Part shown: positions 1 through 1,668 of the stretch, in pieces | Layout of the letters: the number at the start of each line of letters is the position of its first letter | Position numbering within the stretch: position 1 is the stretch's first letter | Source: an uncultured Kordiimonas sp. | Lineage (GTDB): Bacteria; Pseudomonadota; Alphaproteobacteria; Sphingomonadales; Kordiimonadaceae | Assembly: GCA_947500295.1 (NCBI GenBank) | Contig: CANMRM010000002.1 | Span: 372,001 to 436,000, forward strand | DNA length: 64,000 nucleotides | Direction: 5' to 3' | Program-made: the position numbers and the translations under genes | The notes under the pieces: model-generated | The model's database searches: none | What the model saw: only the letters and a program-made list of their open reading frames with translations | Told to the model about the DNA's origin: nothing

Positions 1-168
1 TTTTTGATCGCTGGGGCCGAACATCCGCGCGTTTTTCAGCACTGATGTCCAATGACATTTTATTCTCTTTTCTTTTCACTGCGCACCCACGCAGTTCACT
101 TGCCTTTCTATTAGCATTGATCTGCGGTCATGCCAATCGCCCAGTTTTTCATGTGCATTTCGTCTTTT
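1..168. other. Left-edge stretch without a supported gene
   Basis: No complete gene is seen. An open frame from base 1 ends at the TGA at 43-45 and could be the last 14 codons of a gene lying outside the window, but this is too short to support. Bases 58-80 and 105-180 are T-rich, leading into the LexA-box promoter that follows. Confidence 0.4.
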
Positions 169-183
169 GTTCTTTTTTTGTTC
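169..183. promoter_or_regulatory. LexA (SOS) box 1, upstream of the -35
   Basis: GTTCTTTTTTTGTTC is a perfect match to the alphaproteobacterial LexA consensus GTTC-N7-GTTC. It ends one base before the TTGACT -35 of the small membrane protein gene at 238. A second perfect box lies at 210-224. Confidence 0.8.
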
Positions 184-212
184 TTGACTGCCGCCGTTAA
201 TACAAATAAGAA
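184..212 (+). promoter_or_regulatory. Sigma-70-type promoter between two LexA boxes
   Basis: A -35 TTGACT (184-189) is followed after exactly 17 bases by a -10-like TAAGAA (207-212, three of six consensus positions). The -35 abuts LexA box 1 and the -10 overlaps LexA box 2, so LexA bound to either would block polymerase. The expected start point, near 219, gives a leader of about 20 nt before the ATG at 238. Confidence 0.6.
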
Positions 213-224
213 CAATACAAGAAC
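210..224. promoter_or_regulatory. LexA (SOS) box 2, over the -10
   Basis: GAACAATACAAGAAC is the reverse-orientation form of GTTC-N7-GTTC and a perfect match. It covers the end of the -10 and the likely transcription start. A further GAAC stands at 231-234, but its spacing of 10 does not fit the consensus pitch of 11. Confidence 0.8.
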
Positions 225-237
225 AAGGGGGAACGCG

Positions 238-435
238 ATGACCGCAGCTCACATTACGATTATTTGTCTATTCTTTCTGATGGGCGGCTTTGGCATGGCT
301 GCAATACAGGGTGCCCTTGCAACCATTTTTCGAGGTTATGTTCGCACTGTTGCCAACAAACGACAGTATGGAAATTCGGGTTTTGCGCTCAAATTGAATT
401 CGCTTGAGCCTGCGATAAAAAAACTGTCCAGCTGA
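238..435 (+). CDS. Small SOS-regulated membrane protein (65 aa), unknown function
   Basis: The 65-residue product has one hydrophobic helix at about residues 6-31, with a glycine-rich GGFG patch, followed by a basic, polar tail of about 34 residues (RGYVRTVANKRQYG and onward). I do not recognise a family. The ATG at 238 follows AAGGGGG five bases upstream; an in-frame ATG at 130 lies upstream of the promoter and is not used as the start here. Two perfect LexA boxes flank the promoter, so DNA damage should induce it. Small single-pass SOS proteins in other bacteria (SidA and DidA in Caulobacter, YneA in Bacillus) inhibit division; a similar role here is inference from size, topology and regulation, not homology. 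Confidence 0.65.
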   Translation: MTAAHITIICLFFLMGGFGMAAIQGALATIFRGYVRTVANKRQYGNSGFALKLNSLEPAIKKLSS

Positions 436-858
436 TAGACGGCCCTGTTTTTTTAGCGGTCTTTAAAGCTTCGAATAGAAATGCCATTTCGGCTTTTTTC
501 AAGTATGCAGATAGACAAAGTAAAGGCGCGGGTCACACCATATATGGCATAGACACCGCGCCTATTCCGAGCGAAACCCCCAGGTGAAGCCCGGTACCAG
601 ATTTTCGTAGGCGGCAGCAATTTCTCGCGCCTGCTAGCTGGTGTCACCTCCCCAAGTTAACCAGCCAAAGTCCTACTTCATCTGATGGAGTGCCATCGAA
701 CTGGATTCGCCCGCTCATGTCAAGTTTCGTTCATAAAAAATTAACAAAACGACAATGTTGAAGATCAAACTGTGACTTTTTTGCGTCGGACGCGCTGCTG
801 GAATGCATCACCGGGTGATGACGCACTCCATGACAGTTTGTGGCGAGGACGAAATTGG
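436..858. other. Intergenic region with a structured GC-rich block
   Basis: I find no convincing gene. Bases 514-551 can fold as a hairpin with arms GGCGCGG and CCGCGCC. Read on the minus strand, GACACC near 635 can pair with GGTGTC near 545 to enclose about 90 bases with further short stems (AGGCG/CGCCT). The plus strand also contains CACCTCCCC (637-645), an anti-Shine-Dalgarno-like tract seen in some alphaproteobacterial sRNAs. It does not match tmRNA, SRP RNA or RNase P RNA as I know them. The rest (660-858) shows nothing. Confidence 0.3.
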
Positions 859-1668
859 TCAGCCAACAGGCTCGCCCTGATACTCCGAAACCCGGCAATA
901 TTGATCAGGGCTAATACGCTTGATGCGGCTGCATAGTGCGTCGGCTTCCTGTTCATTGATAAGTGGCCCGGCTACCAGACGCATAAACGTCCCTATTCCC
1001 TCCTGACTTTGCACATACAGGAGAGGTGTAAGGCCCTGCAGGTCGCCGGCAAAAGTTTGGGCCAGGTTGCTCCATCCACTGCTGACCTGATCACGGCTGC
1101 GGAATGACGCCAGATGCACACCAAAGAATGCTTCTTCGGTCGGCTCGACATTCCCGACGGGCGTCGAGTCCGCTTCAACTGCCGGATTTGCGTCTGCCGC
1201 AGTTTCGGCCCTGCCCGTTGGCGCAGCTTCTGCGACAAAAGCGGGCTCGCTGGCGTCCGCCATTTCCACCGAAAACAGTCTGTTTTCAAGTTTCTTCAGC
1301 TGATCCCTAATGACCGAAACGTCATTGCGAACGCGATTGACGGAGGCTTCAACCTGCGGATCCTTTTCAACTGTTGCCACCTTAGAGCCCATAGCTGCAA
1401 GTTGCGCTTCCTGGGCACGAACATGCTGAACAAGTTCAACATAAAGCCGCTCAAGGGCGTTGAACCGGTCTCTCAGTTCCCTGTGGTCTTCAGACACAAC
1501 GCCGACATCCTGCGCAAGGGCCTGCTGGCGTGCCTCAACAAAGACCTCTTCGCCTTGCCACATGCTTTGGCTGGCGCAGGCTGACAGGCTTACCATTAAA
1601 CCGGCGAGCAAACATGTCCGGATTGCTTTGCCTGGTAACATGACATTTTTGTGGGGCATATGAACCAT
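859..1668 (-). CDS. SPOR-domain lipoprotein
   Basis: The 269-residue protein starts with a lipoprotein signal peptide ending in LSAC, so Cys at about residue 31 is probably lipidated and the protein anchored in the envelope. A coiled-coil-like stretch follows (residues about 45-135, charged and Leu-rich), then an Ala/Glu-rich linker, then a C-terminal domain of about 75 residues (FFGVHLASFRSRDQV onward) that resembles SPOR, the module that binds denuded septal glycan. The start is supported by AGGTCGG upstream. It sits upstream of nothing obvious and runs in the same direction as pssA-psd. A role in division or envelope maintenance is inference from the domain. Confidence 0.7.
   Translation of the reverse strand: MVHMPHKNVMLPGKAIRTCLLAGLMVSLSACASQSMWQGEEVFVEARQQALAQDVGVVSEDHRELRDRFNALERLYVELVQHVRAQEAQLAAMGSKVATVEKDPQVEASVNRVRNDVSVIRDQLKKLENRLFSVEMADASEPAFVAEAAPTGRAETAADANPAVEADSTPVGNVEPTEEAFFGVHLASFRSRDQVSSGWSNLAQTFAGDLQGLTPLLYVQSQEGIGTFMRLVAGPLINEQEADALCSRIKRISPDQYCRVSEYQGEPVG

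Follow-up and report, generated by a model that had tools for sequence, protein, structure and literature searches.

A single-helix membrane microprotein gene behind a twin LexA-box promoter in Kordiimonas and its relatives

The locus and its LexA-type boxes

At the left end of the window, the whole 64,000 nucleotide stretch of an uncultured Kordiimonas sp. genome analysed here, a 65-codon open reading frame (ORF) follows a promoter-like sequence flanked and overlapped by two LexA-type boxes, and is itself placed between two conserved neighbours, one divergent and one convergent:

1-79, minus strand: 5' end of a divergent ppx/gppA-type gene, the rest lying beyond the window; conserved neighbour
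169-183, plus strand: left LexA box, GTTC-N7-GTTC (GTTCTTTTTTTGTTC), a perfect match abutting the -35 element
184-189, plus strand: -35 element, TTGACT
207-212, plus strand: -10 element, TAAGAA, assigned by eye, 17 bases from the -35 element and overlapping the right box
210-224, minus strand: right LexA box, GAAC-N7-GAAC (GAACAATACAAGAAC), perfect, reading GTTC-N7-GTTC on the minus strand
225-231, plus strand: ribosome-binding site, AAGGGGG, assigned by eye
238-435, plus strand: 65-codon ORF for a single-helix membrane microprotein, ATG at 238, stop ending at 435
250-318, plus strand: codons 5-27, conserved membrane helix with F12, G16, G19 and Q24
859-1668, minus strand: convergent gene for a SPOR-domain protein (Pfam PF05036, E 1.6e-6); conserved neighbour

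The preliminary description of this DNA had picked out two perfect LexA boxes and, between and over them, a TTGACT...TAAGAA promoter with a 17-bp spacer. The boxes are indeed present and are conserved in relatives, and the promoter elements can be seen where they had been placed, the -10 by eye; a strict promoter scan of window positions 1-900 returned no promoter-like site, TAAGAA failing its -10 rule. The two boxes are mutually inverted, their starts 41 bases apart. GTTCN7GTTC occurs in the window at chance frequency (2 matches against 2.1 expected), so we dropped the boxes alone as proof of LexA control, and the case rests on their arrangement and conservation. A longer, 101-codon frame from position 130 crosses the boxes and was rejected, given that the ORFs of relatives start after the right box; a BPD_transp_1 match (E 0.0028, below the cut-off) comes from that frame and not from the 65-codon ORF. 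The SPOR-domain gene, being convergent, is not co-transcribed with the microprotein gene. As judged from sequence, the ORF appears to be a LexA-repressed single-gene SOS unit, switched on by DNA damage.

In the 4.27 Mb genome of the same organism a strict box consensus derived from the twin-box loci has 18 matches, two of them the window's own boxes, which match by construction; the reversed control has 2. Sites precede uvrA (as far as that locus was read), yifB and a PA0069-family radical SAM gene; the remaining strict-consensus sites mostly adjoin unnamed genes. The genome's own lexA (TIGR00498, above the cut-off) has a box, GTTCTCTTTTAGTTC, 31 bases before its ATG (distance counted by hand). 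Among the 18 sites only the window's two stand less than 100 bases apart. A GTTCN7GTTC operator at the promoter is the mark of the alphaproteobacterial LexA regulon, and the putative promoter of the microprotein gene carries it.

Two similar pairs of unannotated ORFs in this genome each stand behind a LexA-type box (C2:177891, L043, and C6:323697, L056), those of their ORFs that were scanned against NCBIfam and Pfam matching nothing. Four LexA-type boxes fall within 21 kb (C3:280798-301411, L049-L052), two beside similar unannotated ORFs, and are possibly a mobile or duplicated SOS cluster. A 79-aa frame at C6:266612-266821 (L168), which stands among unannotated ORFs, matches the LexA model at positions 4-73 only (E 6.7e-9, below the cut-off).

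Conservation of the gene and its operators

A search pattern of box, TTGAC and box has a single match in each of 14 of the genus's 19 genomes, and its reversed control has none in any of the 19. Across the order the pattern is found in 27 of 296 genomes and 12 of 79 genera (20 loci in family f1, one each in f2, f4 and f6, and four in f8), and there is none in f5, the most-sampled family of the 296 genomes. The left box and TTGAC are required by the pattern and their presence in the 27 loci is by selection. The boxes are spaced 40-43 bases start to start in 25 of the 27 loci, and in all 27 a small ORF starts 10-26 bases past the right box, twice with GTG. When TTGAC is not required, paired boxes occur in 5 of 387 genomes of the class (own genome included) against 3 of 387 for the control; outside the Kordiimonas-type group the box pair without TTGAC does not rise above chance level.

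The protein offers a second way to examine its link with the operators. A profile built from 19 proteins gives exactly one match each in 23 of 59 relatives (own genome included), all in family f1. Three of these loci (G008, G019 and G027) were found by the profile alone and lie outside the box-pattern and profile sets; each has two perfect boxes, with TTTAC, TTGAT and TTGAT, respectively, instead of TTGAC at the -35 position, and they are an independent test of the protein-operator link. Three f1 loci were missed by the profile: G025, with two perfect boxes; G024, with two perfect boxes and a 34-codon ORF whose tail is nearly missing; and G026, with a perfect right box. In total 26 of the 29 f1 genomes carry the gene, 24 of them with two perfect boxes, the left box being one base off in G026 (by eye) and G004. 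The dual-box arrangement stressed in the preliminary description is thus conserved, and loss of the ORF or of both boxes from close relatives, which would have told against it, is not what is seen. A 34-row profile matches 17 of 387 genomes in the class, including our own; the other 16 matches were counted as chance, because 15 lie in open frames of at least 267 aa (one with two stops inside the match), the last lies in a 52-aa frame with internal stops, and a perfect LexA box stands at 0 of the 16.

The locus itself is conserved in f1, with the divergent ppx-type gene, then rlmE and guaB, on one side and the convergent SPOR-domain gene, pssA and psd on the other. The ppx gene adjoins the microprotein gene in 26 of the 26 f1 genomes that have it and the SPOR-domain gene in 25, the sole exception being G004, where the locus ends at a contig end; all 15 named Kordiimonas-type loci in this synteny comparison duplicate genomes among 18 unnamed ones and are not independent of them. 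The gene is missing from three f1 genomes, none of which has a close ppx: G002 has no match at all, G005 and G009 only a match at 26-29% identity. The ppx region is there absent or unassembled.

One-helix small ORFs with LexA boxes also stand at the ppx locus of other families: in four of six f6 genomes examined, of which three have two perfect boxes and the fourth a changed base in the left box; in four of four f2 genomes, of which one has two boxes and the rest the right box or its tandem; and, with the right box, in one of two f7 genomes. A perfect box was found at this locus in none of the genomes examined from f5 (0/5), f4 (0/2), f3 (0/1) and f8 (0/1); G036, with its ppx match at a contig edge, and G047, with no close ppx, were left out. 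Four f8 genomes and one f4 genome have a twin-box ORF at loci other than ppx, one of the f8 loci with a weak SPOR-like match (E 1.3e-4). In one f2 relative (L220, 1322-1358, reverse complement) GAAC recurs at 11-base intervals ahead of the small ORF, so that LexA boxes overlap there. The proteins of the other families align with the f1 profile start to start at an hhalign probability of 86% and a score of 30.9; among the controls, 60 column shuffles did not exceed 18.1 and the reversed profile scored 13.1. We read the microproteins across the order as one fast-evolving family, though cautiously, since sequence separates short membrane helices poorly.

LexA control of the microprotein gene is strongly supported by this pattern of operators and ORF, and we regard it as very probable indeed that LexA binds the boxes and that the gene is induced by damage.

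The same promoter layout was also sought in named genomes, where the twin-box scan returned 110 stretches; these are followed by a PA0069-like radical SAM gene in 73 cases, a tiny one-helix ORF in 28, recA in 2 and another or a cut gene in 7, classes that rest on our own motif strings and a hydrophobicity threshold. The 73 radical SAM loci (within L057-L166), by record title mostly from Acetobacteraceae, have a box span of 64-65; the PA0069-family gene of our own genome also has a LexA-type box (L042). A tiny one-helix ORF follows at 28 of 35 loci with spans below 64 and at 0 of 75 with spans of 64-65; the controls for the former gave 2 of 35 (opposite side) and 1 of 28 (600-base shift). Nineteen of the 28 microprotein loci are in genomes already within the 27-locus count for the order and are not independent; without these genomes a one-helix ORF is present at 9 of 16 loci. 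Eight of the nine (L069, L077, L092, L106, L134, L163, L087 and L096, from Rhodobacteraceae and similar MAGs, including one nearly identical pair) encode 38-41-aa ORFs with the helix towards the C-terminus, and a recG-like gene, named from sequence, adjoins at least L069, L106 and L163. Kinship of this Rhodobacteraceae-type family to the Kordiimonas family found no support, the profile comparison giving a probability of 1-2%. At the ninth locus, L166 from a Robiginitomaculum MAG, a one-helix ORF of 30-34 aa stands after the twin LexA boxes and directly before a dnaE-like gene (named from sequence). This ORF is a candidate counterpart of Caulobacter SidA, the gene for which, we take it, adjoins dnaE.

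The microprotein and its predicted role

The 65-residue product had been described as a single-helix protein with a basic tail. AlphaFold2 predicts one helix over residues 3-44, with 33 of the 65 residues at a pLDDT of at least 90 and block means of 92, 98 and 96 for residues 1-30, falling to 56-61 past residue 40. One hydrophobic stretch lies near the N-terminus at 27 of 27 loci (19-residue mean 1.78-2.81), preceded by a neutral or negative flank and followed by a tail that is net positive in 26 of the 27. F12, G16, G19 and Q24 are invariant in 19 sequences and H5 is present in 16. Over residues 4-27 conservation is periodic, with its peak at 100 degrees per residue (p 0.009, or p 0.024 if any angle from 90 to 110 is allowed), and one face of the helix is therefore conserved. 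Differences by codon position amount to 0.50/0.31/0.69 for the helix, which is under purifying selection, and to 0.72/0.71/0.76 for the tail, where charge is kept and sequence is not. The helix so described is conserved, and the basic tail is borne out as to net charge and not as to sequence. Over the whole ORF pS exceeds pN in two close pairs (0.135 against 0.014 and 0.187 against 0.046), figures that rest on few changes (6 and 2; 7.5 and 5.5), and for the tail alone of the second pair pN exceeds pS (0.121 against 0.102).

That the protein belongs to no known family, as first proposed, agrees with our searches. Pfam gave no family for the window protein and three DUF matches only for the 19 members, in one member each (best E 0.03); NCBIfam gave no family for 9 proteins, PADLOC and PDB no fitting one, and PHROGs 14 weak, scattered matches (best E 0.0027), none common to more than two of the 19 members. 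The protein is described by no curated family among Pfam, NCBIfam, PADLOC and PDB.

The arrangement of boxes, promoter and ORF suggests how such a unit could work. In an undamaged cell LexA dimers on both boxes would cover the edge of the -35 element and the -10/start region, holding the promoter closed, the box spacing of 40-43 bases, about four helical turns, placing the dimers on one face of the DNA. Upon damage RecA would trigger LexA self-cleavage, and an mRNA with a short leader would be translated into the 65-aa protein, which by the positive-inside rule would insert as one helix with its N-terminus out and its basic tail in. The helix face bearing H5, F12, G16 and G19 could then dock on a membrane partner in the septal wall-synthesis complex (FtsW/FtsI/FtsN) and delay constriction, as with SidA and YneA, so that division would be paused during DNA repair. 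The tight control that twin boxes would afford suits a product that would be harmful to growing cells.

By analogy with those two proteins, we put the probability that the microprotein arrests or delays division at roughly 0.6. This is the most likely role because of the SidA and YneA precedents and because no SulA match is found in the genome (PF03846, 0 matches, an E. coli control being matched), for which the microprotein is a candidate checkpoint protein. FtsW as the direct partner is a tentative proposal, rated somewhat below even odds. Against a division role stand the metabolic neighbours ppx, pssA and psd, the convergent orientation of the SPOR-domain gene, the absence of the locus from 5 of 5 f5 genomes examined, the retention of only the right box in some relatives, and the excess of pN over pS in the tail of one close pair.

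A second explanation is that the protein is an SOS-induced regulator of some other membrane protein, such as a protease, transporter or envelope enzyme, with the divisome not its target. The one-sided conserved face would fit any membrane partner, and the gene's association with ppx and with pssA and psd, two phospholipid genes, is conserved; however, the microprotein gene is divergent or convergent to its neighbours, which leaves no shared operon, and the f8 members at another locus show that the ppx/pssA/psd neighbourhood is not needed. We consider this explanation unlikely, if the strongest of the alternatives. Less probable again is that the protein acts like TisB, the LexA-controlled small membrane protein that Escherichia coli makes from a long leader under antisense RNA control, by lowering the membrane potential and favouring dormancy. 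The two are alike in small size, one helix and LexA-type control, tight repression would fit a harmful product and the glycine-bearing face could self-associate, but the 10-26 bases between right box and start codon at the 27 loci make for a very short leader, with little room for TisB-like regulation, no Rfam match was found at positions 1-1800 up to E 1, and the polar Q24 is invariant and the tail nearly always net positive. It is most improbable that the ORF is untranslated and the boxes and promoter a decoy or the source of an untranslated RNA, for short and fast-evolving as it is, with an unconserved tail, its helix has the codon-position pattern given above, pS exceeds pN in the two close pairs (on few changes), residues are invariant in 19 sequences and its position is conserved.

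The conserved unit of an SOS division checkpoint in parts of the Alphaproteobacteria could be the twin-operator promoter and not the protein. One LexA-box/TTGAC/LexA-box layout would then clamp unrelated one-helix microproteins (Kordiimonas-type, Rhodobacteraceae and the 30-aa ORF by the dnaE-like gene), and division inhibitors missed by protein search could be found from the promoter pattern alone; we hold this to be doubtful, a speculation that would more probably fail than succeed. The pattern is in any case a route to SOS membrane microproteins whose shortness and divergence put them beyond protein search, and the invariant helix residues make the idea of a membrane partner directly testable by mutation.

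Comparison with known SOS membrane proteins

A full-text literature search on Kordiimonas LexA and on small alphaproteobacterial SOS membrane proteins, with subscription papers mostly outside it, found no account of this gene, and among the matches listed in the broader literature, taken by title and start of abstract, none describes it.

DidA of C. crescentus is, in the accessible part of PMC4211646, a 71-aa, single-helix, damage-induced division inhibitor; it differs from the Kordiimonas-type protein in being controlled by DriD, not LexA, and it binds FtsN. YneA of Bacillus subtilis is, like the predicted microprotein, SOS-induced, with a single helix that holds its key residues. According to the portions of PMC13396833 available, this helix binds TM7 of FtsW, yet it fails to block division alone and the extracellular LysM domain is needed, whereas Pfam found no LysM domain in the window protein or in the 19 members. 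The requirement for LysM besides the helix counts against a division-delay role for a helix-only protein. The YneA host is moreover Gram-positive and uses another LexA operator (PMC9578287, in excerpt). The models of the YneA authors, of low confidence, give SidA, SosA and ChiZ the same target, with SidA on the opposite side of TM7 (PMC13396833, same portions).

SidA of Caulobacter crescentus provides another close parallel. It is a 29-aa inner membrane protein that acts on FtsW (PMC4211646, as far as its text was accessible), and the sections of PMC12700426 available report that filamentation upon lexA deletion depends on sidA. Both are LexA-type-controlled inner-membrane microproteins of Alphaproteobacteria, the Kordiimonas-type one by prediction, with the box GTTCN7GTTC, and they are likened by features, not by sequence. 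They differ in length (29 against 65 aa), and a single box is the rule at about 97% of SOS promoters in Caulobacter (PMC12700426, same sections), against the two here. Like SidA, the Kordiimonas-type product is a membrane protein a few dozen residues long, predicted to have one helix, and its gene follows a LexA-type operator.
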